From assembly GCA_016490735.1 (NCBI GenBank), contig JAEMWC010000055.1:1-64000 (forward strand): DNA of 64,000 nucleotides. The letters are read 5' to 3'. How positions within the stretch are numbered: position 1 is the first letter of the stretch; each line of letters opens with the position of its first letter. Below, piece after piece: positions 21,135 to 39,770 of the stretch. The translations under genes and the position numbers were made by a program. Source of the DNA: Pachyseris speciosa. Its lineage: Eukaryota > Cnidaria > Anthozoa > Scleractinia > Pachyseridae. The notes beneath the pieces are model-generated. The model searched no databases and was not told the DNA's origin. It saw only the letters and a list, made by a program, of their open reading frames with translations.

Positions 21135-21140
21135 CTCTTT
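21135..21140. repeat. Target-site duplication CTCTTT (left)
   Basis: CTCTTT directly precedes the left terminal repeat and is repeated directly after the right one (39765-39770). Six base pairs is the hallmark length for Polinton/Maverick integration. Confidence 0.9.
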
Positions 21141-21514
21141 AGTAGTATAGTAATTGGGGGTACCAGCGCAAAATTTATTAAAGGGGGTTCCAACGCAAAA
21201 ATTTAATTAACTATATATTTAAATCTGCTGGTAAAATTTTTGACTATATCTGATGTTGATGAAATTCTTGTGTTTGGGGTACCAGCGCAAAATTTATTAA
21301 AGGGGGTTCCAACGCAAAAATTAATTTGATTGCAAACTAAAATTTGATGAACTATATATTTAAATCTGCTGGTAAAATTTTTGACTATATCTGGTGTTGA
21401 TGAAATTCTTGTGTTTGGGGTACCAGCGCAAAATCATGGTATCAGCGCGTGGTTTCAATGGAATCTGGCGTATAGTATCCTGCGCGTGGAATTCTAATCG
21501 CTTAATGGTTTCAG
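21141..21514 (+). repeat. Left terminal inverted repeat, internally expanded
   Basis: It matches the reverse complement of 39559-39764 but is about 170 bp longer. The extra length comes from duplication of a TACCAGCGCAAAA...TTTGGGG segment: the word TACCAGCGCAAAA starts at 21161, 21280 and 21421, with a related TTCCAACGCAAAAA in the first two units. GGGGTACC at the junctions is a short palindrome. Confidence 0.92.
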
Positions 21515-21667
21515 CACATTTTCCAATTTTTGTCAATCTATAGTTATTTTTATTTGATGGCAATCTATATTAAAATTCTCGGAAAACTACAGGGTGTAAC
21601 ATTCTTGGAAAACAGGAAATGAGTCATCGCCTATAGCTATTATTTCTCACGCGGAACCGTCAGATGG

Positions 21668-21699
21668 TTTAAAAATAAAATATCAAATAATATTATAGA
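21668..21699 (+). promoter_or_regulatory. Early-type promoter box before the VLTF3-like gene
   Basis: TTTAAAAATAAAA at 21668-21680 is followed by AATATTATAGAATG, whose ATG at 21700 is the start codon. The same box with the same ~32-33 nt spacing precedes the BRO/VRR-NUC, UBA-like and polymerase genes. Confidence 0.6.
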
Positions 21700-22263
21700 A
21701 TGAGTTGTAATTCAGAAATTCACAATGAATTAATGACTATGGAAGAGTATACTTGTCCTTTTTGTGATGAGAAATTGGTAGAAGTAAAAAGTAGTGGAGC
21801 TGCATCATGCTGTGACAATCGGAAAATGTTAAACGATGGTGGTATGAGCCTCTGCACAAATTGTGGTTCAGTTCATGGTTATGATTATGTTAAAGAGTAT
21901 GTTGACTTTTATGAGAATATGTATAAGATACGACGGAAATCGGTATATCATCGGAAGTACCATATCGAAAATATGATAAATGGTATATGCCGTGATAATG
22001 GTTTTCAAATTTCTGTAAAAGATAGTGGAAAAATATTAAAAATATTCGAAGAGATAGACAAAGTACTCCCATTAGTGAATAAGAATCGTAAACGGATGAT
22101 AAGTACAAAATTTGTTCTTAAGCAAATATTTATAATGCTTGGTCTTCCATTCGAGAGTATAACAATTACTAATTCAAAAAAGACGCTTAAATTTTATAAT
22201 CAATATTGGGTTGAAATCTTATTGTTGATATTTGATGTAATTACTGGTATTATTAGACAGTAA
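21700..22263 (+). CDS. VLTF3-like zinc-ribbon late transcription factor
   Basis: The intact 187-residue protein has a C-terminal fold and zinc-binding pattern like the poxvirus A2/VLTF3 family: CPFC (residues 19-22), CC (37-38) and CTNC (52-55). A basic YHRKYH segment follows, then a helical region with the family's RKR(M)IS and YNQYW motifs near 126-169. In large DNA viruses this factor activates late (structural) genes. It is the only rightward gene at the left end and its stop overlaps the tail of the converging membrane-protein gene by 11 bp. It carries the early-type promoter, as expected for a regulator of late genes. The family call is by motif pattern; a profile search would settle it. 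Confidence 0.75.
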   Translation: MSCNSEIHNELMTMEEYTCPFCDEKLVEVKSSGAASCCDNRKMLNDGGMSLCTNCGSVHGYDYVKEYVDFYENMYKIRRKSVYHRKYHIENMINGICRDNGFQISVKDSGKILKIFEEIDKVLPLVNKNRKRMISTKFVLKQIFIMLGLPFESITITNSKKTLKFYNQYWVEILLLIFDVITGIIRQ

Positions 22264-22741
22264 ATTTTTCATCATATTTTAGTAGGTACTTATCGATAAC
22301 AGGACTGTTGTCAGTCACATAATCATCAATGTTCTTCATTGTGTTATGGATGCTTGACTCATTGAAATTACCACTCCTCATTGTGTCTTTTATGGTATTA
22401 AGTAGATGTTGATAACTTTGATAAGCATATGTACAATTCTGTATTTTCAGATCAAGGTTTTTATGCTTCATCCACCCTTGTATCAATAGTGATGCAGTAC
22501 TGATGGCTACCAGACTGACACCACCAGTTGAAATGCTTGCAGCAAGACCACCAGTTGCAAAGATAATAGAAGCTGAATTACCAGCTAATTTCCATATTTT
22601 GAACCGTTTAACTGCTTGTTTATAAGCCCAACACTTTCTGTGATATGTATGGTAATAGGATTTAAGTTCCTTGACCTGGTCTTCAGTTAATTCACCTGAA
22701 ATATGATTCCAGTTGAATATATTCTTCCGTTTAACCGACAT
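22253..22741 (-). CDS. Two-helix membrane protein, SLATT-like
   Basis: The intact frame encodes 162 residues from the ATG at 22741; an ATG three codons upstream is possible. After a basic, aromatic N-terminal helix (YYHTYHRKCWAYKQA), two hydrophobic segments follow, one around SASIIFATGGLAASI and one around GVSLVAISTASLLIQGW, joined by a glycine turn. A long amphipathic helix with regularly spaced tyrosines comes next (CTYAYQSYQHLL). That plan resembles SLATT domains, which are membrane modules seen near nucleotide-signalling systems, but the match is structural impression only. It could instead be a viral membrane or viroporin-type protein. Its start sits in an ATATATG context like the other genes of the element. 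Confidence 0.5.
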   Translation of the reverse strand: MSVKRKNIFNWNHISGELTEDQVKELKSYYHTYHRKCWAYKQAVKRFKIWKLAGNSASIIFATGGLAASISTGGVSLVAISTASLLIQGWMKHKNLDLKIQNCTYAYQSYQHLLNTIKDTMRSGNFNESSIHNTMKNIDDYVTDNSPVIDKYLLKYDEKFTV

Positions 22742-22750
22742 ATATATCAT

Positions 22751-23173
22751 TTATATTATAATCCTCTTGAAAATACAGTAAATCAAACCAGAAATCTGTC
22801 CACACAATGGAGATCTCTTCATAAATCTTGATGTTGCATTTTCTGATAAGGCATATGTATACCCTCTATCAAGTGAGTAATAGTCATAGAATCTACCAAA
22901 AGCATCATGGAGAATACCGTGTGAGTTTAATATATCAATCCAACCAAGTGTTCTTTCAAGAAATCGTGTGAGTCAACCATTTCCCGGGCCAATAAGTCCT
23001 ATATCCTTATGAAGATGCAATATGTTTTCAACTGTGTGTATTTCATTGAAATGTTTGTGGTGTAAAAATTGGTATACAAGGCATGATTTAAGAATTGAGT
23101 CATCAACGTAAGGATATTGTTTTTTTGTTTCTTCAAATGAATATTCCACATATTTGATTATGTCTTCTATCAT
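22751..23173 (-). pseudogene. Unassigned Polinton protein with possible phospholipase-like HD motif
   Basis: The gene starts at the ATG at 23173, whose ATGA overlaps the stop of the upstream fibre gene. It runs about 140 codons to 22751 with one in-frame TGA at 22973-22975, shortly after GLIGPGNG. Past the stop, the frame continues with LGWIDILNSHGILHDAFG. GPGN followed by a histidine-aspartate pair recalls the calcium loop and catalytic HD of phospholipase A2 proteins, but the cysteine pattern is absent and I would not assign it on this alone. No transmembrane segment is clear. Confidence 0.45.
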
Positions 23174-24216
23174 ATATTATATCGTTGTATTAAAATTTGA
23201 TGATGATCTAAAATTGTTTTTTCATCTAACATGAAATCCAAGTATACACAGAAAAAAATAATACAACCGTCTAAAGGTGCGATGGAATTTGGATTTAAAT
23301 CACCAAAAGTCATTTGTTGACTACCGGTTCTGTTGGCAGATGTAAAACTTCCCACATGTTTTTTGTTCCAATAGATTTTACTTTTGTTTGTATTAGGAGA
23401 AGATAAATTATCCTAATGAACAGACAAGCAGTGCCAAATATTGATTTTACCCAGATCATTTACGGAATAATCTGCTAATTTTTTGAAATTTTGTATAGAT
23501 GCTGCTGGACCAAAATACACACAATTTGTTTGATCAACACCACTTATAGCTAAATTTGAACCATTGTAATAGCTGACAAACTTATCATAACCTCCATTAT
23601 CATGACCAAAAAGTCCATTTTTCCATGGATTTCCACCTGTATTTGAATTTAATTTGTAAACAATGAAAATATTAACAGCATTATTATTTAAATTAATTTG
23701 ACTCATCATTCTCTGTGATCCGCCAAATTTTAAAAAATAACGTCCATTAAGTTTCTCAGCCTTGGTACAAACAGTAGGTCTTGAATTTATGGTTGATTGT
23801 GTTGCATCATTTTCTTCATTTGAAAGATCGTATAATGTTTCAACTTTTCTGTTTGCATTCATATCTACAAAATCATCATTGGCTCTGTCAATTTGATAAA
23901 CACATTTTGAGTATAATCTGATAAATTCAGAAACCCACAAATCCAAAAAACTATCTCTAACAATGTCAGAAACTTGTGATTTGACAACAACATGATCAGA
24001 ATCATTGCCTGCTTTTACATTTGTCAAAAGTTTGTTTCCAAGATCATAGTGCCCATCTTGTGTCAAATTAAATCCATTTCCATTATCAGCTTTATCACCT
24101 TTTGGACCGATTAGACCTCTATCACCTTCATCACCTTTGTCACCTTTATCACCTTTAGGACCTGTTTTACCAGTTCTTATATTATCTTTATTTGGTGAAT
24201 AGTTGAATATACCCAT
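23170..24216 (-). pseudogene. Short fibre protein: collagen-like stalk and lectin-type head
   Basis: The start at 24216 lies in a TCTAA-N8-TATATG block. The first ~20 residues (MGIFNYSPNK...) match those of the longer fibre gene at 27155. A collagen-like run of Gly-X-Y triplets (GPKGDKGDKGDEGDRG) follows at about residues 19-45, then a linker and a beta-rich region with LNGRYFLKFGG and NIFIVYKL, which looks like a concanavalin/LamG-type lectin fold. One in-frame TAG (23413-23415) interrupts the head; the frame then continues to a stop at 23170. Together with the longer gene this would be the spike that contacts host cells. The head type is inference. Confidence 0.65.
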
Positions 24217-24232
24217 ATAATATTAATTTAGA
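24214..24232 (-). promoter_or_regulatory. Late-type promoter of the short fibre gene
   Basis: On the minus strand the block reads TCTAA-ATTAATAT-TATATG, its ATG being the start codon. It lies immediately after the stop of the long fibre gene. Confidence 0.6.
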
Positions 24233-27155
24233 TTAATTCATAATCACTTCAAGTGTGAATGCTGTATCGAAAGCACCTGTATTAGGATGAGAATAATCAA
24301 TGATAAAATAACCTTTGGATAATGATTTATTGACTGTAACTGTTCTTATGTTTCTACTCATAGAAGGAATTCTATATTCGAAAATAGTTGCTGGTAATGG
24401 CAATAACCCAGCACCTTCATTCTTTTTCTTGAAGTAGAACATTCCAGGTTTTGTTCCTTGTATGATATACATTTTCTTAATATAAAAGTTATTGTTATGA
24501 ATGACTAAATATTCAGAGCCATTTATCAATACAGGCTTCAAAGAATTCTTATTATGTCCTTGATTGGCTTTGACAAAGCAGTTTAAATATTGTATTTGAC
24601 CGATTATTCCATTCCCATTCAAATTTAGATCACCTCCTAATTTCGGACTGTAAAGAGCAAATCGACCCAAATCGAATGCCGTTTCCATAATTACACCTGT
24701 AACGCTTGAACGAAATAGTTTTAAAGCACCATTATGAATTCTATGGCCATTTAGATTTAAATCACCACCAAGTTTAGCCTCTTTTATTGAATATGTGTTC
24801 ATATTAATATCATTTAGCATTGTCAATTCACCATTTTGACCATCAAACAAGTTTCTTGATTCATTTATCAAAGCATGTCCATTCAAATCTAAATCAGTCT
24901 GTAATTGTAGTTTTTCATTCACGATGTTATAAGCTTCAGTGAAGTCGTAAACACTTGATGGAACGTCTGCAGCTTCGAAATCAATACCATATACAACACA
25001 AGGAACTTTGTACTTATTTGGATAAGTTGGGTTAGCATTAATATGAATCGTACAATATAAATATTCAGGTGGTGAACTTACTGAAGGTTTTTCAATCCAT
25101 AATAAATATCTCGAATGATCTTCATTTCTGTTATCAAATTTTCTCCCTACAGTTTTATGAATTGTGATTCCACCAGTTGCACTGAATGTTACACTACTAA
25201 GACTCATTCCTTCATAATCAGGAAATAGCCATTCAAGAATGAAAGTGTATTTTCCATCTTTTATTGTATACATATTAAATCCAATTCTAGCTCTGTAAAT
25301 ATGATTAGCTTCTTTATTCAAGTCTACATCAATGACCTTTTTTGAAATCGAATGTGGTGAACGAGGTAAATTGACATATCCATTAACTTTCAAGCCATAT
25401 TCAGTACTGACTTCATCGATATCATTCATCAAATATTTGAAAGCATTCTTTGGATGAGAAGCAGATGAAATATGACTTTTTTCTAATTGATCTAAATTTA
25501 CGGCATCGGTTTTATTTGTTCCTTCTTTTAAGTTAATGATTTTATGCCCTCCAAGTTTTAAGTCTGCTGCCATCGCATTTGTTCCATTCAATAATAAAGT
25601 ATTTGCTCTCATAACTATTCCAGCTCGATTTAAAACTCTGAAGTTCACTGCATCAGTTTCATTCGACGGGTTAGCTAAATTCGTCACTCTATTTCCACTC
25701 ATTGACAAATTTCCATACATCGCAGTCGAACCGTCTCGTCGAAGAAAATACTCGTCAGTATATCCTTTTGTAGCCGCATCATCTAAATTTACGGGTAGAG
25801 CAAGATCAGTAATGGCATTGTTGTTCATATTTAGATTTTGTTGTGCGATTGCATCAAGTTTGGTTTGCAACCTCTGGTCCACATATTTTTTATTAACTGC
25901 ATTTTCAGCTGGCGTACTGCTATCAATGTCTTTCAAATTTTCTATAGCGTATCCGTCCATGTCAAGATCACCCTCTGCTGGGTCGGTTCCGTCCCGTTTC
26001 AAACAGCTTGCAATTTGAGAGTCAACATAGCTTTTGTTTGTGCCGTCTAATATATCAACGGGATATTTCATGTTTTTGACAATATTCCGTCCCATGTCCA
26101 AATCTCCAGTCATTGCAACGCTTCCATTTAGTTTCAAAAAATTATTGTTCACATAGTTTCTATTGACAGCTGAATAACCAAATCTTGGGTTATCTGGTAT
26201 GCCAAATAGATCATTTCCATTCATGCTGACAGGTGCAAAAATTACACCACCAGTGTTTTTATTAAGGAAATCAGCCAGTTCATCATCAACATACTTTTTG
26301 TTTACAGCGTCTTGTGGGTTTGAGGGGGTATCCTGTAGGTTAAGGATTTTGTTCAATTTCATGTCAACATTACCACCAAAAACGACGTTGCCGTTTTCAA
26401 TTTCATAAGCTGGGTCATGGACAAAGTAAGACAAGTTGGTATGAAAGCCATAAGCTCCATAAACTATAATATGATGTTTCACATTTTTCAATATGTTTGG
26501 TGTAATAACTATTAATTTAATCCTTGAGGCTGCTTGACTTGTTTTTTCAATGAAGAATATTTTCTTAAGATAACCATCAACAACATGTGTCTTTGAAAAT
26601 GCTCTTTGTATTGGACTTTTTCTTGTATGTAAATTTGATGTCCTCATTTCAATTTCAATTGTCGCCTGCCCTGGATTATTTTCTGTATAAAATTCAACAA
26701 CAAAAGTGTACTTTGAAACTACCAATTGTGATACATTGAACACAAAATCAGATGTAATACTTTCATCAGGAGTTATAAAAGACAATGATTTTTTGTTGAT
26801 CTTGTATGGGCTTTTATTAAAGTCTTCTAATTGAAGATTATTCGCATTTTGTGTTACAGTTGTTTTTGATATGTCTTCGAGAAGAAATTTAAATGGATTT
26901 TCCCGAGTTCCTTCAATTGATAAAACAGCATCGTTTAAATATCCAAAAATTTGTGGAATCGCTATTATTTATTGGCGTGCCAACGTTTGTTATACGTTTA
27001 TTTTCGATATTATAATTACCATCTTGTGTTAATTTGAATCCATTTCCATTATCACCTTTATCACCTTTTGGACCAATTGGACCTCTTTCACCTTTTGGGC
27101 CTCTTTCGCCTGTTCTTACATCTTCTTGATTTAATGGAGAATTGAAAACACCCAT
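24233..27155 (-). pseudogene. Long fibre protein with collagen-like stalk and repeated tail-fibre motifs
   Basis: About 970 codons run from the ATG at 27155 to 24233. The N-terminus matches the short fibre and is followed by a short Gly-X-Y stalk (RGPKGERGPIGPKGDKG). Many copies then follow of a ~30-40 residue repeat of the type 'L-(D)M-x-G-x-x-I-x-N-L ... D-A-V-N-K-x-Y-V-D', as in phage and Polinton fibres (residues ~200-520), then beta-rich domains. One single-base frameshift near 26945 separates the first ~70 codons from the rest; the downstream frame is open for more than 850 codons. Downstream of the shift there is no ATG in a good context, so the gene really starts at 27155. It is the longest open reading frame in the element apart from the broken polymerase. 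Confidence 0.75.
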
Positions 27156-27171
27156 ATAATATTATATTAGA
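27153..27171 (-). promoter_or_regulatory. Late-type promoter of the long fibre gene, overlapping the ATPase stop
   Basis: The block reads TCTAA-TATAATAT-TATATG on the minus strand. The TAA of TCTAA is the stop codon of the upstream ATPase gene and the final ATG is the fibre start. Confidence 0.65.
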
Positions 27172-27808
27172 TAATACCATAAAAGTTTCTCTTAACTGTT
27201 TTCATTGGTTTGTCAACATAACAGAAAGAATATGGTTTTTTAGTTGCTTCGATATACTTTTGCTTATCAATTCCAAGTTCTTGAGAGATGATGTTTCTCT
27301 CTCTTGTTGATGGAAAATCATAAAGGCAGAAGTGGCTACAATTAAGCTTAACAGATTTTGGACATCCATAGAATGACTGTGTTAGGTACAGTACTGAACA
27401 ATTTTTATGGCGACCTTGAATGAAATAGCTGATGATTTGATCTTGTTTTTTATCAGTCACAAAATCATCAAACACAACCAACCGCTGCAATTCATTGTCT
27501 TTAATTTGTTCAACAGGTAAAATTTCATCTTGGCTACAAATTAAAACGGGGTAACCAACTTGTTTGCTTATTATATCCATAACTTGCTGTAAATATCGAT
27601 ACTTATCCTGATCTAAATTTTTGGCGTATAGATGGATCTGATCATAATAGACCAACGGTTCCATAATCAAGTGCATAAATAGTGTAGTCTTTCCAGATCC
27701 AGAATTCCCAGCCAATAACATTCTAAAAGTATCTTTCGGCATATACGGATACAACTGTCTAAAAGACTTGTTTGAATCCTGAATGATATCATAATTTGGA
27801 ATTTCCAT
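27167..27808 (-). CDS. A32/FtsK-HerA-type DNA packaging ATPase
   Basis: The intact 213-residue protein has a Walker A loop GNSGSGKTT (residues 34-42), a Walker B strand LVVFDD (110-115), a sensor LTQS (142-145) and a basic GRHKN segment (132-136) that may supply the arginine finger. Length and motif spacing match the packaging ATPases of Polintons, virophages and poxviruses, which pump the genome into the preformed capsid. It is divergently transcribed from the coiled-coil gene across only 36 bp. It is among the few genes of the element still open, with no internal lesions. Confidence 0.9.
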   Translation of the reverse strand: MEIPNYDIIQDSNKSFRQLYPYMPKDTFRMLLAGNSGSGKTTLFMHLIMEPLVYYDQIHLYAKNLDQDKYRYLQQVMDIISKQVGYPVLICSQDEILPVEQIKDNELQRLVVFDDFVTDKKQDQIISYFIQGRHKNCSVLYLTQSFYGCPKSVKLNCSHFCLYDFPSTRERNIISQELGIDKQKYIEATKKPYSFCYVDKPMKTVKRNFYGII

Positions 27809-27844
27809 ATGTTAATAGTTTAGATTAGTCTAACTCAATTATAT
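27809..27844. promoter_or_regulatory. Bidirectional late-type promoter
   Basis: The 36-bp gap between the divergent ATPase and coiled-coil genes holds two late-type blocks back to back: TCTAA on the minus strand at 27820-27824 and on the plus strand at 27829-27833. They form the inverted repeat TTAGA-TTAG-TCTAA, each placed 8 nt before the (C/T)ATATG of its gene. Confidence 0.65.
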
Positions 27845-28726
27845 ATGGATATTGAACGAATGAAAAGGCTTCTAAAAAGTGGAATTGAAGCTGGAAACAA
27901 GACTAAAGAAGTTCGTGAGGTTATCAAGACTTTTGAAAAAAGAAAACAGGATGCATATGATGAAACTTCAGAATTACTAAAACCCTCTATTGATGTCCAG
28001 AAGAGTGTGAAAGAAAGTGTCGACAAAAAACAGGATGAAGTCATTGAACAGTTGAAAAAGAATCAAAAAGCATTGACAAGTGGTTTTGAAGACTTAATAC
28101 TTATGGATGCATTGCCTGCATCAAAACCTTTGGAAACAACAAAATTACCAATTGATTATAAACCAAAAATGATGACTGAAACAGAACCAAAGTATAAGTC
28201 AAATCTTGATAAAGGTTTTTCAGTTGAGGATATTGAGGTATTAATGGAAAATGTATTATATCCTCCATCAATAGTTTTAGAAAAGATAATGGATGGAACA
28301 ATCGATATTAATGAGTATGATGCAAATATTGGTAAAATAACCCAAAAACTTGGAAGACAAAAAGCTCAACTATCAAGTAGTAAAAAATTGAGGGATAAAA
28401 ATAAAGAAAAAATTTATAAATTAACTCAAGAGATCAAATTACTACAAAAGTACCGAAAAAGAATTGGTGCTGTTGAGGAAGGTGCACAAACTGTTGGTTC
28501 AGGTATCAGAAAGAAAAAAAGACAATCTGGAGCAGGTGTTGTTCATTACAATAATATTAGTGACTTGCTTTCACGACTCCAGTTACTTGGTGGGTCTATT
28601 TTTGCTGGGAATAATAGTACTGGTGTCAGAGATGAGTTTGTGAATATATTGCATGTATTAAGCAGACTGGGTATTGTTTCAAACAAGGAGCTCAATAAAA
28701 TAATGATTAAATATCTAATGCAATAG
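27845..28726 (+). CDS. Coiled-coil structural protein of Polinton type (function unknown)
   Basis: The intact 293-residue protein starts in a TATATG block. Charged helices dominate residues 1-85 (MDIERMKRLLKSGIEA and a long Lys/Glu-rich coiled coil) and 150-205 (QKLGRQKAQLSSSKKLRDKN). A basic hinge KKKRQSGAG follows near 225, then a more ordered C-terminal domain with LSRLQLLGGSIFAGN and LSRLGIVSNKELN. It sits between the packaging ATPase and the capsid genes with no gap, so a virion or scaffold role is likely. I do not recognise a named family. Its stop codon lies inside the promoter block of the penton gene. Confidence 0.75.
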   Translation: MDIERMKRLLKSGIEAGNKTKEVREVIKTFEKRKQDAYDETSELLKPSIDVQKSVKESVDKKQDEVIEQLKKNQKALTSGFEDLILMDALPASKPLETTKLPIDYKPKMMTETEPKYKSNLDKGFSVEDIEVLMENVLYPPSIVLEKIMDGTIDINEYDANIGKITQKLGRQKAQLSSSKKLRDKNKEKIYKLTQEIKLLQKYRKRIGAVEEGAQTVGSGIRKKKRQSGAGVVHYNNISDLLSRLQLLGGSIFAGNNSTGVRDEFVNILHVLSRLGIVSNKELNKIMIKYLMQ

Positions 28727-28732
28727 TATATG
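28714..28732 (+). promoter_or_regulatory. Late-type promoter of the penton-like gene
   Basis: The block TCTAA-TGCAATAG-TATATG overlaps the last codons and the stop (TAG at 28724-28726) of the coiled-coil gene. Its ATG is the start of the capsid gene. Confidence 0.65.
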
Positions 28733-29516
28733 ACAGAAATATCATTACGATTCAACAGTAAAAACAGAGACAAGATTGGTGTCAGTAAGAGTCATGATTT
28801 TGAAAAAAGATTCAATACACCTCTTAAATTAACGAATGATTTGAAATATGAAATGGCTGTGAATGTTATCAATATGACATACAGTTGGTATAACATCAGA
28901 GAATCTTTAGGGAATAACCAAATTAAATATAGCTATAACAAAGGTGTAAACTGGGAAACAATAACATTCGTTGACGGGATGTATTCATACGACGATATCA
29001 ATAGTTACATTCACGAGTACATGAAAAAAAAATAGCCATGTACTGAATCCATCGGAAACAGACAAATCAAAATTCAAGTATGGTATTAATATATATTTTG
29101 TTTTATCAACATATCGTATTTTGATCGAACTTGATGAAAATTATCGAGTGGATCTGAGAGATCTTGATTTCAGAAAACTTATTGGGTTTGAGTCAAAATT
29201 AATTTCAGCCACAGAATATGGAACAAATCTACCTGATATTACAAGAGGAGTAGATGAAATTTATATCAATTGTGATATGGTGATAGATAGCATTGTTGAT
29301 GGCAATAGCACAAGTACAATCGCAGTTATTCCAGTCACAGATCTCGTCAGAAGTTTACCTTTCACTTACAAACCTCGTTTTCTTTCATGGAATCCCGTCT
29401 CAACACACACAATCAGCTCAATGCATTTTTATGTCACAGACTCTTCTGGAGCTCCAGTCGATTTAAATGGGATAGATTGGTATGTTGAGTTATTCTTGAG
29501 AGGGACTGAATTATAA
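28730..29516 (+). pseudogene. Penton-like minor capsid protein
   Basis: About 262 codons from the ATG at 28730. One base gained or lost in the A9 run at 29024-29032 shifts the frame; the downstream frame is open to 29516. The N-terminal half contains LRFNSKNRDKIG and YSWYNI. The C-terminal half contains RVDLRDLDFRKLIGF and ends in a strand-rich region (MHFYVTDSSGAPVDLNG, YVELFLRG). Size, position just before the major capsid gene and the conserved C-terminal pattern fit the single-jelly-roll minor capsid (penton) protein of Polintons and adintoviruses, which fills the five-fold vertices. Assignment is by context and pattern. Confidence 0.65.
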
Positions 29517-29529
29517 AACCTAATAGTAT

Positions 29530-29772
29530 ATGAAAAGGTTTGAATTAAAAAAATATGAACAAATTGGTGAAGGCATCTTTACTGACATTGCCAAAACAGC
29601 TGTAAAAAAAGCAGCTGAAAAAGCAGCTACAACAATTGGTGAACATGCTGGCAAAAAAGGTGGTGATAAAATAATAGAACTTTTAAGAAAGAGAAAGAAA
29701 AATGGTGGGAGTGAGATTAAGACTGGGGGTGAGATCAAAAGAGGCCGTGGCAGACCTCGCAAAATAAAGTAA
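29530..29772 (+). CDS. Small basic AT-hook protein (possible DNA-condensing core protein)
   Basis: The intact 80-residue protein is rich in lysine and alanine (AVKKAAEKAATTIGEHAGKK) and ends in a canonical AT-hook, RGRGRPRK. AT-hooks bind the minor groove of AT-rich DNA, and this element is AT-rich. The gene lies between penton and major capsid genes, so a role in packaging or condensing the genome, like adenovirus core proteins, is a reasonable inference. Its start sits in AATAGTATATG, but the usual TCTAA upstream is replaced by TAAAA. Confidence 0.65.
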   Translation: MKRFELKKYEQIGEGIFTDIAKTAVKKAAEKAATTIGEHAGKKGGDKIIELLRKRKKNGGSEIKTGGEIKRGRGRPRKIK

Positions 29773-29778
29773 CTTTTA

Positions 29779-29797
29779 TGTAACACAATAATATATG
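29779..29797 (+). promoter_or_regulatory. Late-type promoter of the major capsid gene
   Basis: The block TGTAA-CACAATAA-TATATG is a one-base variant of the TCTAA-N8-TATATG form, and its ATG is the start codon. Confidence 0.55.
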
Positions 29798-31081
29798 TCA
29801 AACTATCGCGACTCAAAATATATCGAACGATATGAAGATGCTGTCTTTGAGCTTGAGACAGCACTTAATACTGTAGTAGCAAATAATGCTCATCAGAGGA
29901 AAACAGGTTACCGATTTGTTGTTGATAACAGTGGAGAGACAACACCATTTGACTGGTATAATGCCCGTTTTAATGTTATTTTCAAAGAAAATAAGATTAT
30001 AGATGGAGCTAACATTGCTGCTGCAGATCGAAATGGTATTGTTAATCCAGTTCACGCTCTTATTAACACCATTAATGTAAAAATGAATGGTCTTGATGTT
30101 TATGAATGCCGAGACGCTAACCAAGCCACAAATATTAAGTCGTTGCTTGAGTATTCACAGGGTTATGCTGTAAGTCAGGGAACCAATTAGTTCTTCTATC
30201 TTGACACCAAAAGGCATGCCGAACACAGAACAGCTCAGGCGGCAAATTATAACAAAGGATTCACAGATCGTAAAGCTTTGCTTAATGATGGTGGTGAAGT
30301 AAATGCAGAGATAGCATTGAACAGATACAGTTTTTTCAAGAGCTTTTGGGATGAACTTATGCCTAACTCAAAAGTAGAGGTGAACCTAACACTTGAGAGT
30401 GATGACAATTTGATTTGGCAAGCTACTGATGAATGTCGTATGATACTAACTAAATTCCAGCTAATAGTTCCTCGCATTGTTTTCAATTCTGCGGGAAAGT
30501 CTTTATACATGAGTAAGTATCTTGACAACAGAAAGTGGACTAACATGAGAGAAATGGTTGAGAGAGGCAATTCAACAAGACAGCAGACTGCCAATTTCCG
30601 TATTTCCACAGGAATAAACAAACCCAGACATGTCTTTGTATTCATCATCAATGATGCAAATGATTCAGAACAGACAGAGAATAAATTTCTCTATAACACA
30701 TTCTCTGTTGGTAATGACAAAACTTTGACTGATTGTTATCTTGAAGTTGGCAACGGAAATGATTATCCAGAGGTTCATTATAAACCATCAACAGAACCAT
30801 CAAGAGTATTCAGAGATGTTCTCAAATATGTTCAAGTTGTAAATGACTTTAGTGACAATACCCTTCTCACAAGAGGAAACTTTGCTACAATATTCCCTTT
30901 CATTTACTTTGATCTGACAAAACAGAAGCAGGACATAAAAGATGGAATGACAAAACTGACTTTCAAATAAACTTTAAGTGCTGCAGCAGATCATGATTAC
31001 AGTGTGTATGCATTGGTACTCTATGAGCAGGATATTGAAATGAGAAAGACTGATGGAAAGTTGATTCTGAGATCCATGTAA
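29795..31081 (+). pseudogene. Major capsid protein, double jelly-roll type
   Basis: About 428 codons run in one frame from 29795 to 31081, interrupted by two in-frame stops: TAG at 30188-30190 and TAA at 30968-30970. The reading frame continues across both, so they are point lesions. The N-terminal part has TPFDWYNARFNV and VHALINTINVKMNG, strands typical of the first jelly roll. The C-terminal part has FPFIYFDLTKQ and the YSVYALVLYEQD ending. In this family the protein forms trimers that make pseudo-hexameric capsomers. It sits in the standard place after the penton gene. At ~430 residues it is shorter than many Polinton capsid proteins. Confidence 0.75.
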
Positions 31082-31194
31082 TTAAATAATTAAATAAATA
31101 AATTAAATAATTAAATAAACAATTAAATAAATTAAATAAATAAATTAAATTAATTGTTTTATATTAAATACAATTTAGTATAAACATATATTAT
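31082..31194 (+). other. AT-only spacer with late-type promoter
   Basis: The gap between capsid and pVI-like genes is a low-complexity ATTAAATAAATTAAA tract, followed at 31179-31197 by TATAA-ACATATAT-TATATG, a late-type block ending in the next start codon. Confidence 0.6.
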
Positions 31195-32042
31195 ATGACT
31201 ACTTATCATCCTCATGGAGTGAAACTTTCACAGGGTCAGAAAGATAAGCTTGCAAAAGCTTATAGAACCAATTCAGCTGTAACATTGAGGTTATCGCATA
31301 GTGAATTGTCTGGAAATGATCAACTTATGTTGACAAAGACACAAATCAACAAACTGATGAAATAAAAAAGATCAGGAAAAGGTTCAGATATCAAAATATC
31401 AAAAACTCAAATCAGAAAAGCTGTTGTACACGGAGGTTCTCTTTGGTCATCTCTGTTTTCTCTTGGAACAAGACTATTGCCTTATGCAGGTAAAGCAGTA
31501 GCAAAAGCGGCTCCAGCATTAGCCACTGGTGCTCTTTCTTCATTAGCAAGCCTTGGTATTGATAAATTGTTTGGAAAGAAACAAAAAGGAGGATTCATTA
31601 TTCCCAATCAAAACTTGTCCCAACTATTGAATTATAAAAATTTGTTAAATGTGAGACAAATGGCTGATCTTGTCAATGCGATGCAGTCTGGTGGACAACT
31701 TGCTATCAAACCAACAAAAACTCAGTCTGGTGGTTTTCTTGGAACACTTTTGGCAAGTATTGGAATTCCTCTGCTTATGAATGCCTTAACTGGAAAAGGT
31801 TTGCATGTTGAACACAGCCGTCCTAGACGGTCATTAACTGTGCATGTTCCAGATACCATTGCAATAAAAAATAAAAGTGGTGGAAAACATGCTATGATTC
31901 CATGGCAATCCCCACCTGTTTTTGGAACATGGGATAACCCAATCGGTTATGGAATGAAAAAAAAAAGACCAAAGGAAAAGGACTTCTACTGGGCAAAAAC
32001 AGTCCATTCAATTCAATCCCTATACTAGGAACAATACTGTAA
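31195..32042 (+). pseudogene. pVI-like minor capsid / membrane-active protein
   Basis: The gene starts MTTYHPHGVKLS at 31195. The N-terminal segment (SQGQKDKLAKAY, LRLSHSEL, TKTQINKL) has short repeats of a hydrophobic/charged pattern, followed by alanine/glycine-rich hydrophobic stretches (APALATGALSSLASLGI, GTLLASIGIPLLMNAL) that could insert into membranes. This resembles the Polinton protein often compared with adenovirus pVI. Lesions: an in-frame TAA at 31363-31365 and a frame change in the A10 run at 31957-31966, after which the likely native C-terminus is read to the stop at 32040-32042. It lies between the capsid and protease genes, as in relatives where the protease matures it. Confidence 0.6.
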
Positions 32043-32047
32043 GATTC

Positions 32048-32500
32048 ATCAATAAACCATTATCCAACTTTGATTTAATCAATTGGGTGAAACAACTTGG
32101 AATAAAAAATTTTAGAGGAGTATTTTCAAGAGACAATCTTCCTAGACAAATCAAAAACAAAGAATGTGGAATAGTCAATCTAGACAGTTGGATTGGACTT
32201 GGCACTCATTGGGTATGTTATAGGAATATGGATACATACTGTGAATACTTCGACTCATTCGGATTGATGATGCCAACAGAAGTTCAAATATATATGGCTA
32301 CAAGCGGGAAACAACTTGAATACTCTGGTGATGAGATACAATAAAGGGATTCAGTCTTGTGCGGATATTGGTGTTTGTACTATCTACTCGTGAGACAAAA
32401 AGGCAGATCAATTCTGGATACAATACACAATTCCAAATTCAGTTCAACAGATGTGAGTGTCAATCACAGATTCATCATAGACTACTTCAAAAATATCTAA
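32048..32500 (+). pseudogene. Adenain-type cysteine protease
   Basis: The frame contains the C5 peptidase signature: FRGVFSRDNLP, then GTHWVCY with the catalytic histidine, YFDSFG with the acidic residue, and CGYWCLYYL with the catalytic cysteine. An in-frame TAA at 32342-32344 lies between the acidic residue and the cysteine, so the protein is cut before its nucleophile. No ATG is present at the expected start; 32048 marks where the homologous frame becomes recognisable. In Polintons this protease cleaves virion proteins during maturation. Its stop codon (32498-32500) lies inside the TCTAA of the next promoter block. Confidence 0.8.
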
Positions 32501-32514
32501 CCCATTTGTATATG
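32496..32514 (+). promoter_or_regulatory. Late-type promoter of the zinc-ribbon/PLA2 gene
   Basis: The block TCTAA-CCCATTTG-TATATG contains the protease stop codon in TCTAA and the start codon of the next gene in TATATG. Confidence 0.65.
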
Positions 32515-33359
32515 AAATCATATTGTGTGAAACAGAAGAAGGTCACTGAATGCGTACCAGGTAGTGAGAGATATCAAAAGACAAAAAACGGTCAAACTAT
32601 GATGAAATGCACTTGTGCTGAGTGTGGGATAACGAAGACTAAATTCGTCAAGAGAATGGGAAACGGATTGGCCCGTCTGAAGGGGCGGGCATATTAACAA
32701 CTGGATTAGATCTAGCGGGAATGGCAATGAAGGATTTAATATTACCACAAGCTTGGAAAGCTGGGAGATATTATGCCAGTGAAGCATTACGTGATCCTAA
32801 AAAACAGCAATATTTGATTGATAAAGGACTTTCCCTCGTAAAACCAGCTATTAGTTTAGTTGGAAAAAAAGCATTATTTGATTTAAGTACAAAAATACGT
32901 CCCAAGCGTGCCGATAAGAGATAAACCCATAAAACAGATATTAAGGGCATTGATTACACACGTGGTGGTGCTATTGATATTCACAAAGCTATTGGCAAGC
33001 TTCCTAAACCAAAAAGCGGGTGGACACCCGGAAAATATAAATACATGGGTCCCTATAATCCTCTTCATGAACAGTTGGAATATGATCCAGTAACTGGAGA
33101 GGTATTGAAGTGGAATGTACAACCTTACAATAAAGTAGATGAAATAGCAGCTTATCATGATATTTGTTATGATATGGGAAAAAATAAAGGTGATTGTGAT
33201 TGAACAATGGTCGAGTCACTAGATCAAATACCGTATGGTGAGATGCCAAAATGGGGTCAAACAGCCAGATTCTTAATTGACAATAAACAGAAATTAGGTC
33301 TTGGTGTTTCAAAAAACGGAAAAAGCCGTCGAGTGAAGAAAACTGGCAAGAAAAACTAG
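32512..33359 (+). pseudogene. Zinc-ribbon protein with parvovirus-type phospholipase A2 domain
   Basis: From the ATG at 32512 the first ~50 residues carry a CxxC...C pattern (TECVPG, CTCAECG). A frameshift near 32690-32720 leads into a second frame with a helical segment (DLILPQAWKAGRYYASEALRD) and then the phospholipase domain: a YMGPYNPL calcium-loop motif and IAAYHDICYDMG with the catalytic histidine-aspartate pair. In-frame stops are TAA at 32922-32924, before the domain, and TGA at 33201-33203, just after GDCD. Such domains in parvovirus VP1 breach endosomal membranes, and similar ones are known in Polinton/adintovirus genomes. Joining the two frames into one gene is inference. Confidence 0.65.
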
Positions 33360-33406
33360 CTGATGAATTACATGCACCCATAAAACGAAATTTTACTCGG
33401 CGGCGT

Positions 33407-34273
33407 GTGATTGTAAATAAAATTGATGAAATATGGGCTGCTGATCTTGTTGAAATGCAACAGTTTAATAAATGGAATAAAGGTTATAAATATCTTTTGA
33501 TGGTTATTGATGTTTTCAGTAAATATGGTTGGATTGTTCCTCTGAAGGATAAAAAGGGTGAAACTGTAACTGAAGCATTTCAAACAATATTCAGAGATAG
33601 AACACCACAATATCTGTGGGTTGATAAAGGTAAAGAGTTTTACAACAAACACTTAAAGGACTTGCTAGAGAAACATAGTATACAGATGTACTCTACTGAA
33701 AATGAAGAAAAGTCCTCAGTGGTTGAAAGATGGAATCGAACAATGAAGTCCAAAATGTGGAAGCAGTTCACTGTTCAAGGTAATACACAGTATTTAGACA
33801 TGTTGCCAAAATTAGTGAAACAGTATAATAATACCAAACATTCAAGCATAAAGATGACACCCACAGAGGCTTCAAAGAAAAAGAATGAAGGAACTGTTTA
33901 CTTTAATCTATATGGTGATATGGAGCCATTATCAGCTAAACCAAAATTTAAGGTTGGTGATAAGGTCCGAATATCTAAGTATAAAAGAAAGACTTTTGAT
34001 AAAGGATACACACCAAATTGGACTGAGGAAGTGTTCACAGTTGATAAGATCCAATACACTAATCCAATAACATACAAAATAAAGGATCAGAGAGGTGAAG
34101 ATATTGAAGGGAGTTTTTATGAACCTGAATTATTAAAAGCCAGACAGGATGTTTTCCGTATTGATAAAGTAATTCGCAGGGATTACAAGAAGAAACAAGC
34201 TTTAGTAAAGTGGAAGGGGTATAGTGATGAATTTAACAGTTGGATACCAATGAAGGATTTAAAAGATATATGA
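33407..34273 (+). CDS. DDE integrase with C-terminal chromodomain
   Basis: The frame is intact. The retroviral-type core shows its catalytic triad: D13 in WAADLVEMQ, D73 in LWVDKGKEF and E107 in SVVERWNR, with NTKHSSIKMTP after it. An SH3-like DNA-binding segment (KFKVGDKVRISK) lies near residue 180. A chromodomain ends the protein (VFRIDKVIRRD, LVKWKGYSDEFNSWIP; ~249-288). Chromodomain integrases direct insertion to marked chromatin. The first codon shown is a GTG; the frame is open upstream to about 33302 with no ATG, so the true start may lie further left, overlapping or fused to the PLA2 gene. Enzymatically the core looks complete. Confidence 0.88.
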   Translation: MIVNKIDEIWAADLVEMQQFNKWNKGYKYLLMVIDVFSKYGWIVPLKDKKGETVTEAFQTIFRDRTPQYLWVDKGKEFYNKHLKDLLEKHSIQMYSTENEEKSSVVERWNRTMKSKMWKQFTVQGNTQYLDMLPKLVKQYNNTKHSSIKMTPTEASKKKNEGTVYFNLYGDMEPLSAKPKFKVGDKVRISKYKRKTFDKGYTPNWTEEVFTVDKIQYTNPITYKIKDQRGEDIEGSFYEPELLKARQDVFRIDKVIRRDYKKKQALVKWKGYSDEFNSWIPMKDLKDI

Positions 34274-34383
34274 AATTGTTTAAAGAGAAAATTATCTAAT
34301 GTATTAATAAGAAGTTACAGTGTTTGCTGTTATTTGCTACTGGTAGCCAAGAATATTATTTATTCCTGACTATTTAAAAGAGG
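34274..34383 (+). other. Intergenic spacer
   Basis: The AT-rich gap between integrase and BRO/VRR-NUC genes shows no open frame. It leads into the early-type promoter. Confidence 0.5.
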
Positions 34384-34416
34384 TTTAAAAAAATAAAAAA
34401 TAGTATAGTATTATAT
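34384..34416 (+). promoter_or_regulatory. Early-type promoter of the BRO/VRR-NUC gene
   Basis: TTTAAAAAAATAAAAAA at 34384-34400 is followed by TAGTATAGTATTATATATG, the last ATG being the start codon, 33 nt after the box begins. Confidence 0.65.
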
Positions 34417-35259
34417 ATGCAGAAATATTCATACGAGAATAAAGAATTAGATGTATCAATAGATTGTTATCTTGATGAAAAGAACAACATTTGGTTTAGA
34501 GGAAGAGACATAGCTAATATTCTTGACTATAAAAATCCACAAAGAGCGGTTAGAAATCATGTTGTATCTGATGAGAAAATCTTGATAGACCTCAAAATAA
34601 TCACAAATTCACGGGGGACCAAAACGGTCCCTCGTGCTGAGGCCACTGATTCACGGGGGACCAAAACGGTCCCTCGTGCTGAGACCATTGAAAAAACTTT
34701 CAAATGTTTTTTTATAAATGAATCAGGATTTTATTCACTCATATTATCTTCCTAAAATCAAGAAGCTGTAAAATTCAAACATTGGGTTACATCAAAAGTA
34801 TTACCATCAATCAGAAAACAGGGATATTACAATCAGTTTAATGATAGAAGTAATAACATGCTGATGATTGAAAGTGAAAATGATCTGCACTGCAAGATTG
34901 TATCATTCATCAGAAAAAAATATGAAGATGCTTTAATGATAGCTGGTTTAGGTGAGAATCAAATTAGTGCAAATATGAGAATCAAAAGTTATAACAAAGG
35001 ATATATGCCTGGACAATGTGATTTAATGCTGTTGAATCCCACAAGAAAATACAATGCTCTTTGTCTTGAATTTAAAAGCCCTACTGGTGTTTATCAAGTG
35101 TCGGATAAACAAACAATTATGAAGCAAATGTATGAGAAAAATAAGTGTAGATACATCATGAGCAGTTGTTTTGAAGATTTAATTCATGAAATAACCAAGC
35201 ACATGGAAGAAAGCAAATCATACTTATCAAGAAGAAGAACATACTTAAACGCAGATTGA
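34417..35259 (+). pseudogene. BRO-N domain protein fused to a VRR-NUC nuclease
   Basis: One frame runs from 34417 to 35259 with a single in-frame TAA at 34753-34755. The N-terminal half is a BRO-N (baculovirus repeated ORF) DNA-binding domain (FRGRDIANILDYKNP, FINESGFYSLIL, HWVTSKVLPSIRKQG). The C-terminal half is a VRR-NUC nuclease of the PD-(D/E)xK superfamily: PGQCDLML with the acidic residue, LEFKSP as the ExK motif, and an upstream conserved glutamate/histidine (ENDLHCKI). The fused linker contains two copies of a 14-residue repeat (SRGTKTVPRAE). Possible roles are recombination or replication-intermediate processing. It has an early-type promoter. Confidence 0.78.
34610..34690 (+). repeat. 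Two 42-bp tandem repeats, each a hairpin, inside the BRO linker
   Basis: CACGGGGGACCAAAACGGTC is followed by CCTCGTG, so each unit folds as CACGRGGGACC/GGTCCCTCGTG with an AAAAC loop. Units start at 34610 and 34652. They stay in frame because 42 is divisible by 3. Confidence 0.8.
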
Positions 35260-35264
35260 AACGA

Positions 35265-35297
35265 TTTAAAAAAATAAAATATATAGTAATATTATAT
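35265..35297 (+). promoter_or_regulatory. Early-type promoter of the AT-hook/UBA-like gene
   Basis: TTTAAAAAAATAAAAT at 35265-35280 is followed by ATATAGTAATATTATATATG ending in the start codon at 35298, with the same 33-nt spacing as the BRO promoter. Confidence 0.65.
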
Positions 35298-35654
35298 ATG
35301 GAAAATCAAAATGTCAAGAGAGGTCGAGGAAGACCAAGAGTTCTAACTGATGATGAAAGAAGAAAAAACAAGACTAAATGTATGCTAAAAAAGGAGTGGT
35401 ATTGTAGCATTTGTAATAATGGAAAAAATTACACACTTGCTGGAAAATGGTGCCACTTGAATACAAGGAAGCATATTAATAACAGGGTGACTGATGTTAG
35501 ACACATAAATTGTATGTTGGATTTGAATGATATTAGAAACATAAATTATATTATGGAATTGACTGGAGCAGATTTAAGTAAAACATTATATGCACTAAGA
35601 TGTAATAAATATGATGTTGAGGATGCTATAACAGAGATAAAACATTCAAGTTAG
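35298..35654 (+). CDS. AT-hook, zinc-finger and UBA-like regulatory protein
   Basis: The intact 118-residue protein starts at the ATG at 35298; an upstream in-frame extension to 35256 is untypical and lacks the promoter context. Residues 6-13 form an AT-hook (RGRGRPRV). A CSIC...CHLNTRKH segment follows, a likely C2H2/C2HC finger. The last ~45 residues (INYIMELTGADLSKTLYAL...DVEDAITEI) resemble the UBA domain of the nascent-polypeptide-associated complex alpha subunit. I infer a nucleic-acid-binding regulator; the UBA part could bind ubiquitin or serve dimerisation. It has an early-type promoter. Confidence 0.6.
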   Translation: MENQNVKRGRGRPRVLTDDERRKNKTKCMLKKEWYCSICNNGKNYTLAGKWCHLNTRKHINNRVTDVRHINCMLDLNDIRNINYIMELTGADLSKTLYALRCNKYDVEDAITEIKHSS

Positions 35655-35788
35655 GGTAATACAGTTCGAAGGATCCAAAATTTGGATCACTTGAATTTAA
35701 CCTATACTTAAACGCAATACAAAGCTACTTAAAAAATAAAAATATATAGATATTATATAGAATAGAAAATTTTATCTCACCCATTAGT
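35655..35788 (+). promoter_or_regulatory. Polymerase leader: palindrome plus early-type promoter
   Basis: GATCCAAA-A-TTTGGATC (35672-35688) is a perfect 8-bp-arm palindrome that could be a terminator of the preceding gene or an operator. CTTAAAAAATAAAAATATATAG at about 35728-35750 is the early-type box, followed by TATTATATAGAAT at ~35751. The start codon follows at 35789, giving a leader of about 28 nt, unlike the other early genes where the ATG sits in the TATTATAT element. Confidence 0.5.
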
Positions 35789-38700
35789 ATGAACAAGAGT
35801 GATCTTGAAAAACTAAGCAAAAATGAATTAATCAATTTGCTGTTGAAGCAGCAGCAGAAGAAACCAAAAATTGTTATCGTGGATGATTATAAACCAACCC
35901 CTCCACCTAGAACTAAAAAACTGAAGAGAACAACACAAAGACCAACAGTGAAGCAATTGGTTGATTATTTTGAGAGGAAAAGATTACCAGCCCCACCTGC
36001 TGAATGGTTGGAAGAAATAGAACAATTGAAAAAGAAACCTGTGCCAGCACCTAGAACCAAAAAGGTAGTTCAAAGGCCTGCGCCACTAGCAAGGACAAAG
36101 ATATTACAAACTGAAAAAGCTCTGAAAGGTTACACTAAGTCTTTTGAAATTGATATAAAAAATGACAAAGACCCGCTAGAGCAACTACTAAACACAAGAA
36201 TGGCAATCGAAACACGTATTAAAAAATTGTTGAATGAAATGAAAGGACTGAAATTTGTTGAAACACTCAAGGTAACATTCACAAAGATAACAGATGGTGC
36301 TTTAGAGTACAAGACAGCATACTTCAACAGTCAAGCTGAAACAATCATAAACAATCCAGAGATCAATGAATCATTACAAGTGTCAAAACAACAAATAATA
36401 AATAAGATAGCTCATGGGTATCTGAAGGTTCTGGTTGGACAATTGAATCTGTTGATAATCATTATCTTAATGTTGTCAAATATCAACCAATGAGAGGCTC
36501 CTCATATATTAAAATACCACAAGAACTTAGAAACAGTTCTAAAGGTTTGATCAACTTGAAAAATGAGGATAATGAATGCTTCCGGTGGTGTCACATCAGA
36601 CATTTAAACCCCCAAGACAAAGATCCACAGAGGATTAAAAAAGTTGATAAAAAATATGTGGACAACTTAAATTACACAGGAATTGAATTCCCAGTAACCA
36701 CTAAACAGTACAACAAGATAGAAAAACAGAATGAGATCAACATCAATGTTTTCGGTTATGAGAATAAACAACCATATCCAATTTATGTCTCAAAAGAAAA
36801 ATATGAAGACTGTATGAATCTCCTTCTGATAACTGAAGATGAAAACAAGCATTATGTGCTGATTAAAGATTTCAATAAATTCATGTACAATCAGACTAAA
36901 CACAATGAAAGAAAACATTTCTGTATGCATTGTCTGTTCTCATCTGAGAGAATATTGACAGATCACAAAGACAATTGAATCCAGGTAAATGGAAAACAAG
37001 CAATCAAAATGCCTGAAAAAGGTAAAAACATTTTGAAATTTAATAACTTTCATAAACAACAACCTGTTCCATTTGTGATATATGCTGATTTTGAAGCCAT
37101 AACTGAGAAAATACATGGTTGTCAACCTGGTGATAATAAATCATTTACAGAGGCTTATCAGAAGCACACTGACTGTGGATATGGTTATAAGGTAGTTTGT
37201 TGTTATGATGATAAGCATAGCAAACCTGCAACAGTTTACAGAGGTGAAAAGGCTGTTTACAAATTCATGGAAGCTATGTTAGAAGAAGTCAAATATTGCA
37301 AAAAGGTGATGAAAAAGGAATTCAACAAACCATTGAGAATGACAACAGAGGATGAAAAAGAATTCTAAAAAGCTGAGGAGTGTCACATCTGTGATAAGAA
37401 GTACACTGACAAAGATATAAGAGTTAGAGATCATTGTCACATTACTGGTAAATACAGAGGTTCTGCTCACCAAGATTGTAATCTGAAACTCAGAGTAAAC
37501 CCAGAAGAAATAAAAATACCAGTTGTATTCCACAATCTGAGAGGTTATGATAGCTATTTCATTATGCAAGAGATTGGAGCCATCGTCAAGAAGCACACAT
37601 ACAAAAATAAGAAAGGTGAAGACTGTCAAATGACAATCAATGCAATCCCCAATAACATGGAGAAATATATGGCATTCATGCTTGGTAATCACCTGACCTT
37701 CATTGATAGTTTCCAATTTATGAGCTCTAGTTTGGAAAAACTGGTCAATAATCTACCAAAAGAAGCCTTGAAATATACCTCTCAAGAGTTTAAAGGTAGG
37801 GATCTTGATTTGATGGCAAAGAAAGGTGTTTACCCCTATGACTACATGGACAGCTTTGACAAGTTCAATGACAAACTTCCAACCAAAGAAGACTTTTACA
37901 GCATACTGAACAATGAGCATATTAGTGATGAGGACTACATGCATGCACAAAATGTGTGGGATAAATTCTCTCTCAATAACATGGGAGAGTATCACGACCT
38001 ATACCTCAAATCGGATATATTACTATTAGCCGATGTATTTGAAAACTTTAGAAAAACATGTCTTGAATACTATAAACTGGATCCTTGTCACTATTTCACA
38101 TCTCCTGGACTATCCTGGGATGCAATGTTGAAAATGACAGACATAAAATTAGAATTGATGACAGATATTGATATGTTCCAATTCATTGAAAAAGGTATGA
38201 GAGGTGGTATATCATACATAGCCAATAGATATGGTAAAGCAAACAATAAATACATGAAAGATTACGATGAGAAGGCGTCCTCTAAGTATATCATGTATCT
38301 TGATGCTAACAATCTTTATGGTTGGGCTTGGATCTTGGATCTTTGGATCTTGCAATGTATAAAGAAGATAGCAGCAAAGGTTTGATTCTGGAAGTTGATC
38401 TGGAATACCCTGAAGAGTTGCATGATCTTCATAATGACTACCCACTTGGACCGGAAAAAATCAAAGTGACTGAGGATATGTTATCAGATTATTGTAAAAA
38501 CATAGCTAAGAAATTCAATATATCAACAGGCTTAGTTCATAAGCTGATCCCAACATTAAGCAATAAAGAGAAGTATGTTATACATTATAGGAACCTCCAA
38601 TTATACACCAATCTTGGTTTGAAAGTAACTAAAATCCATAGAGTGTTACAGTTCAATCAATCCCCATGGTTGAGACAGTATATTGATTACAACACTCAGA

Positions 38701-39524: not shown

Positions 39525-39558
39525 ACCACCCCCCTAAATAAGTATGTGATTCCATTTA

Positions 39559-39764
39559 CTGAAACCATTAAGCGATTAGAATTCCACGCGCAGGAAACCA
39601 CACGCCAGATTTCATTGAAACCACGCGCTGATACCATGATTTTGCGCTGGTACCCCAAACACAAGAATTTCATCAACATCAGATATAGTCAAAAATTTTA
39701 CCAGCAGATTTAAATAAATAGTTCATTAAATTTTTGCGCTGGTACCCCCAATTACTATACTACT
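39559..39764 (-). repeat. Right terminal inverted repeat
   Basis: The 206 bp are the inverted counterpart of 21141-21514 without the left-end duplication. They end in CCCCCAATTACTATACTACT. Confidence 0.93.
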
Positions 39765-39770
39765 CTCTTT
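39765..39770. repeat. Target-site duplication CTCTTT (right)
   Basis: This is the right copy of the 6-bp duplication. Removing the element and one copy restores a continuous host sequence across the site. Confidence 0.9.

Follow-up and report, generated by a model that had tools for sequence, protein, structure and literature searches.

The window analysed here is a stretch of 64,000 nucleotides from the coral Pachyseris speciosa (GenBank assembly GCA_016490735.1, contig JAEMWC010000055.1, positions 1 to 64,000 of the forward strand). It holds an 18,624-base pair (bp) Polinton/Maverick insertion in which genes read as virion and assembly genes begin in a shared block, TCTAA-N8-YATATG, and which also encodes a VLTF3-like protein. 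The insertion has terminal inverted repeats, identical over their first 33 bp, and is flanked on both sides by a 6-bp target duplication, CTCTTT. Pfam searches with 19 open reading frames (ORFs) of the element led to an rve integrase (PF00665) with a chromodomain and an A32-like packaging ATPase (PF04665), which together with the repeats and the duplication identify a Polinton/Maverick. A Bro-N protein (PF02498, gene at 34417) was found as well, together with a VRR-NUC-like protein and two fibre proteins, one collagen-like and one stalk-like; the VRR-NUC and collagen matches lie below the Pfam cut-off. None of the 19 ORFs matched an RNA polymerase, and Rfam gave no match across 21000-40000. 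The region 36490-39524 consists of several pieces read as PolB by eye only, and the three pieces given to Pfam had no match. An earlier reading of the same DNA, made by a model from the letters and a list of ORFs (the sequence-only reading), had called all genes with the block structural or assembly genes. This holds for the packaging ATPase and weakly for the capsid, as PF21738 (double-jelly-roll capsid) was matched by 2 of 20 scanned capsid homologues and not by the query itself. The penton and pVI-like proteins had no informative Pfam match, and capsid, penton, pVI-like and zinc/PLA2 serve here as labels taken from that reading. The element, the factor gene and the motif sites are as follows.

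21141..39764, no strand: Polinton/Maverick insertion
21700..22263, plus strand: VLTF3-like late transcription factor gene, 187 amino acids (PF04947, homologues, cysteines, structure matches)
24214..24232, minus strand: exact TCTAA-N8-YATATG, short fibre start (pattern count)
27153..27171, minus strand: exact block, long fibre start (pattern count)
27806..27824, minus strand: exact block, packaging ATPase start (kept there in 18 of 20 close copies)
27829..27847, plus strand: exact block, coiled-coil start, divergent from the ATPase (16 of 20 close copies)
28714..28732, plus strand: exact block, start of the gene labelled penton (pattern count)
29514..29532, plus strand: departing form TAAAA-N8-TATATG, AT-hook start (exact TCTAA in locus L067)
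29779..29797, plus strand: one-base variant TGTAA-N8-TATATG, capsid start (exact TCTAA in seven other loci)
31179..31197, plus strand: one-base variant TATAA-N8-TATATG, pVI-like start (exact TCTAA in three other loci)
32496..32514, plus strand: exact block, start of the gene labelled zinc/PLA2 (pattern count)

Pattern counts on both strands of the window led to six exact matches, all at start codons, where 100 shuffles gave an expectation of 0.02, and these are the six starts that the sequence-only reading had named. Its one-base variants at the capsid and pVI-like genes were recovered too, bringing TNTAA-N8-YATATG to 8 matches (0.54 expected), as was the larger departure at the AT-hook gene. 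When two mismatches were allowed, 44 matches were counted in the window against 42.1 by chance, and the signal therefore resides in the near-exact form. Inside the element there are 808 ATGs, 39 of them in YATATG; the exact motif was found at 6 and a form with at most one mismatch at 9, of which one, at 27954, is not a named start. Outside the element the exact motif was found at none of 1,297 ATGs (20 in YATATG). In 500 first-order random sequences of the element, the mean was 0.05 for exact matches (maximum 1) and 0.84 for matches with at most one mismatch (maximum 5), so that the motif is not common at random ATGs. Across the assembly of 984 megabases the exact N8 pattern occurred 9,671 times and the reversed pattern 751 times, compared with 991 and 905 for a spacing of 7 and 1,023 and 793 for a spacing of 9; since these neighbours show little excess over the reversed pattern, the 8-base spacing alone is strongly enriched. 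Chance in A/T-rich DNA, against which the fixed gap had been held to argue, is ruled out by the shuffles, the reversed pattern and the spacing controls. A scan of spacings over 70,181 bases (45 sites at 8, 10 at 3, one at 9, one at 18, otherwise none) is not relied on, because most of this DNA had been chosen for holding the N8 motif; the ten sites at spacing 3 presumably come from a further TCTAA within the fibre word TCTAATCTAATAT. Among the first 30 of 100 listed sites (of the 9,671; all on one contig), 26 ATGs open frames that match late genes of the window, and the other four open short frames of 29-75 amino acids with no match.

In a first look at the genome the VLTF3-like gene had 1,969 candidate places, the ATPase 3,832 and Bro-N 1,785, with 150 places scored per gene, and all DNA copies compared below come from this one genome. 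For a close set, 20 ATPase places spread over the 150 listed were picked by homology and not by motif. TCTAA stood at -16 of the ATPase start in 18 of the 20; at the coiled-coil start divergent from it, 16 of 20 had TCTAA, two lacked it and two were not located. A divergent set was obtained with a database ATPase (P0110) that is 62% identical to that of the window. Of its first 24 places four were left out, three of them with an incomplete N-terminal match, and the remaining 20 were used; the last of these, L108, carries the promoter words of the close family. TCYAA-N8-YAT was detected at 18 of the 20 ATPase starts and at 17 of the 19 coiled-coil starts located among the 20 examined, and the expectation that related copies carry the motif at the same genes is thus borne out within this genome. 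TCTAA-N8-TATG takes the place of TCTAA-N8-TATATG at 15 of 20 coiled-coil and 2 of 20 ATPase starts of this set, the ATG lying two bases nearer at a constant distance from box to TAT. The fusion of the block to the start codon, seen at all six window sites, is accordingly not a fixed feature, and the retention of box-N8-TAT while the ATG moves indicates a signal for transcription rather than translation. In the divergent coiled-coil promoters the columns of the box are 88-100% alike, and those further upstream drop to 35-71%. In three divergent copies, 13 late starts were located and TCTAA-N8-YAT was present at eight, one of them with its ATG turned into ATA. The exact box was also found at the capsid start of L010, L011, L019 and L030 (motif-picked), L067, L109 and L110, and at the pVI-like start of the last three; L067, selected for its motif sites in the genome-wide search, has the exact motif at the AT-hook, capsid and pVI-like starts alike, and its late proteins are 63-83% identical to those of the window, fibre matches apart. 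As the box is exact elsewhere, the variant starts of the window are most simply explained as changes private to this copy or its kin. IMG/VR and the GTDB genomes gave no relatives of the element.

The fibre genes (24233-27155, minus strand) are highly variable among copies, with the promoter word kept and often followed by an MG(I/V)FN start. Such variation under a constant promoter word suggests a swapping of fibre modules.

VLTF3 is a late transcription factor of poxviruses. The ORF at 21700-22263 matched Pox_VLTF3 (PF04947) with E 3.4e-6, above the curated cut-off, and contains CxxC pairs at residues 19-22 and 52-55 whose cysteines are invariant. From 684 homologues found and 120 listed, 34 were aligned; 28 of these match PF04947 (E <= 0.001) and two match the TFIIB zinc ribbon. 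With the predicted structure, the sole viral match at E < 0.001 was an uncharacterised protein of Tetraselmis viridis virus S1, presumably a Polinton-like virus, and an algal Polinton-like virus may on the strength of this model carry a VLTF3-like factor as well. Lower matches (E >= 0.01) included giant-virus TFIIB and VLTF3, B385R of African swine fever virus (ASFV; rank 15, E 0.40) and cowpox VLTF3, these named matches being mixed with unrelated names further down. Several of the top non-significant structure matches in the PDB are chains of RNA polymerase II (Pol II) initiation complexes, which we take to be TFIIB; a PDB sequence search with the profile gave no support (best E 0.017, a NusA chain). 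The gene was present in all three divergent copies examined, in pieces 36-52% identical to the protein of the window. Next to it lies a gene for a SLATT-like protein with two transmembrane segments (22253-22750, minus strand; PF18181, E 3e-4, below the Pfam cut-off), and the two genes adjoin in all three divergent copies and, judged by motif word, in 26 of the 30 close ones. The SLATT domain is named after bacterial defence systems.

Upstream of several regulatory genes, a different sequence was observed, namely A-rich blocks at the following positions.

21669..21680, plus strand: A-rich block upstream of the VLTF3-like gene (pattern count)
34385..34398, plus strand: A-rich block upstream of the Bro-N gene at 34417 (pattern count)
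35266..35279, plus strand: A-rich block upstream of ORF 35298 (pattern count)
35729..35741, plus strand: A-rich block upstream of ORF 35789 (a TCTCA-N8-TATG stretch also leads to its ATG)

The window contains five matches to the pattern TTAAAAA-N0-2-TAAAA where 0.48 were expected, and four of these precede regulatory or other non-virion genes; the enrichment is overstated because the pattern was written after the sites were known. Among Bro-N copies an A-rich stretch was seen by eye in 13 of 20. TCT(A/C)A-N8-YATATG was absent from 30 close VLTF3-like loci and from the start of the SLATT-like gene, as seen in 26 of 30 close copies. Starts with TCTCA, found as TCTCA-N8-TAT at ORF 35789 and as TCTCA-N8-TATA in many VLTF3-like copies, may, speculatively, mark a third, intermediate promoter class. 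The VLTF3-like gene and the A-rich second class are additions to the sequence-only reading. Outside these genes, a tandem array of about 40 copies of a 390-bp unit (99% match) occupies the left quarter of the window (2-15552), and an immunoglobulin I-set domain is encoded in the flank of the element.

From its near-exact form, its fixed spacing, its place at the starts of one group of genes and its conservation between two families, the block very probably functions as a promoter. It would be bipartite, a TCTAA core being followed, after a spacer of 8 bp, by a TATA initiator that shares bases with the start codon, and because of this overlap the mRNA would have little or no leader. The gene content and the presence of a VLTF3-like gene in the same element suggest that the promoter is late, that is, read after regulatory genes, several of them with A-rich promoter-like blocks, have been expressed. 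The label of a late promoter given by the sequence-only reading is therefore the one that fits best, both function and timing being deduced from the DNA. The block would most likely be read by a complex under the direction of the VLTF3-like, TFIIB-like factor that the element itself encodes, and this factor would have to recruit either host Pol II or the RNA polymerase of a co-infecting nucleocytovirus; the polymerase probably comes from one of these, because Pfam gave none among the ORFs. We put the pairing of the VLTF3-like protein with the TCTAA block at roughly an even chance. Taken as a whole, a bipartite late-type promoter of virion and assembly genes, most likely read via the element's own VLTF3-like factor, is in our view the probable explanation, by a moderate measure.

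Several points weigh against it. The comparison is confined to one genome, and the window's own copy is broken in the capsid frame (29795-30190, then 30278-30970). Half of the divergent ATPase starts (10 of 20) have TCCAA; in the three divergent copies TCTAC stands at two penton starts and TCTAA-N8-TAC at one zinc/PLA2 start; and the AT-hook start lacks the box in the window (TAAAA), in L068 (TATAA), in L109 and in L110. The PF04947 match of the proposed factor, 27.3 bits against a cut-off of 25, is only just above it, its model is of middling quality (predicted local distance difference test score, pLDDT, 73), and none of its PDB structure matches reaches significance (best E 0.29). Factor and box are linked only by their co-occurrence. 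The division into two promoter classes is a tendency and not a rule, because the Bro-N and VLTF3-like starts mix them: in 7 of 20 copies Bro-N lies directly behind the integrase gene and has, by eye, a TCTAA-containing stretch instead, and 22 of 30 close copies of the VLTF3-like gene have TCTNA-N8-YATA with the ATG further on. Only five of these 22 are TCTAA, and TATAG most often stands just before the ATG; in the two divergent copies with an aligned start the gene has no TCTAA box. The two Bro-N arrangements possibly reflect a change of expression class.

Among other explanations, the one that survives best is a virophage-like dependence, in which the promoter is used by the late transcription apparatus of a giant virus infecting the same cell, a scheme proposed for mavirus with Cafeteria roenbergensis virus (CroV), and the VLTF3-like protein is accessory. 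TCTA is, in the excerpts of the literature cited below, the late motif of CroV and ChlorV and is shared by mavirus and type 4 endogenous mavirus-like elements (EMALEs), and the missing RNA polymerase would be accounted for. A VLTF3-like gene of its own in both families examined, however, would be needless for a pure borrower, and no giant virus partner of the host is known to us, no search for one having been made. We regard this dependence as unlikely, though it deserves to be kept in mind. Far less probable is a signal for translation or in the mRNA leader, by which the block would set the context of the start codon and have no role in transcription. It would explain that the block ends in ATG in the window and that YAT precedes the ATG in the exact form, but not the 15 of 20 divergent coiled-coil starts in which the ATG shifts by two bases with box-N8-TAT unchanged, nor those VLTF3-like starts whose ATG lies beyond the YATA; eukaryotic start contexts are not usually known to include a five-base box at a distance of 16 bases. 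Equally improbable is hitch-hiking, in which copying would have spread a motif frozen in a single ancestral element and now devoid of function. Many copies are indeed near-identical (ATPase 92-100% among the 150 matches listed), so the copy counts are not independent; yet different genes of one element share the motif on both strands, and the divergent family keeps box and spacing amid variation upstream and in some columns of the spacer. A cis- or trans-splice acceptor with TCTAA as branch point, which TCTAAC/T resembles (CTAA-like), can be set aside as extremely improbable, as a 3' splice site needs a downstream AG and 27 of 32 distinct 19-base words have none between box and ATG.

If the bipartite late promoter is real, a cis signal and a candidate trans factor are brought together in one animal Polinton. 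Whether Polintons are transposons or live viruses is described as open, with no extracellular form having been seen, in the excerpts of PMC8097293 and PMC7805220; a block shared by particle and assembly genes, together with a late-factor gene, would speak for a viral programme that runs in stages, and RNA 5' ends at TCTAA-N8-TAT would be a readable signature for catching an active element. VLTF3 is in published use, as far as the partial sources go, as a diagnostic for Nucleocytoviricota, a use that a VLTF3-like gene in a Polinton weakens. The combination is also relevant to the origin of the TCTA promoter in virophages, be it a loan from giant viruses or an inheritance. A bolder and rather doubtful proposal is that animal Polintons carry a complete nucleocytovirus-type late switch (TCTAA, TATA and their own VLTF3/TFIIB-like factor redirecting host Pol II) and can express their virion genes without help from another virus; TCTA in mavirus and CroV would on that view be a remnant of an ancestral system common to Polintons and nucleocytoviruses, and not virophage mimicry. 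No description of a TCTAA-type motif in Polintons was found among the hits listed from openly licensed PubMed Central (PMC) papers, in line with the sequence-only reading, which knew of none, and a search by term in four papers on Polintons and their relatives found no promoter motif.

The closest known counterpart is the late motif of CroV, TCTA in A/T-rich flanks upstream of 124 late genes (excerpt of PMC5294985), which ChlorV shares 'in sequence and position' (excerpt of PMC13196603) and which was reported for mavirus, a small virus with a Polinton-type integrase, and for type 4 but no other EMALEs (excerpts of PMC8547959 and PMC10945749). The coral Polinton likewise has TCTA in A/T-rich DNA upstream of genes whose lateness is suggested by their content. 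It differs in its five-base box and in its setting, an animal genome where the element also encodes a VLTF3-like protein, and it may differ in the constant spacing of 8 bp between the box and a TATA that meets the start codon. ASFV late promoters, which depend on a TATA located at the point of initiation or close to it and have a two-part structure (excerpt of PMC5294985), would resemble the two-part block with its TATATG if transcription starts at this TATA; the same excerpt describes no TCTAA core. With the poxvirus late promoter TAAAT(G) the block shares its fusion to the start codon of structural genes. It was rejected as a member of that class, as the shared block contains no TAAAT, has its fixed element 13-16 bases upstream and reads YAT rather than TAA ahead of the ATG, in agreement with the earlier view that the block has a sequence of its own. 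Adintovirus-like insertions in Amoebidium, a protist relative of animals, are also Polinton-related and VLTF3-bearing, with VLTF3, capsid and PolB genes listed, and differ in that the accessible part of the source mentions no promoter motif. Finally, in beta- and gammaherpesviruses, according to a source available in part, late factors direct host Pol II to TATT promoters of late genes. These viruses and factors are unrelated and serve as an analogy only, but the combination of a viral factor, a short A/T core and host Pol II illustrates that an arrangement such as the one proposed for the coral Polinton can work.

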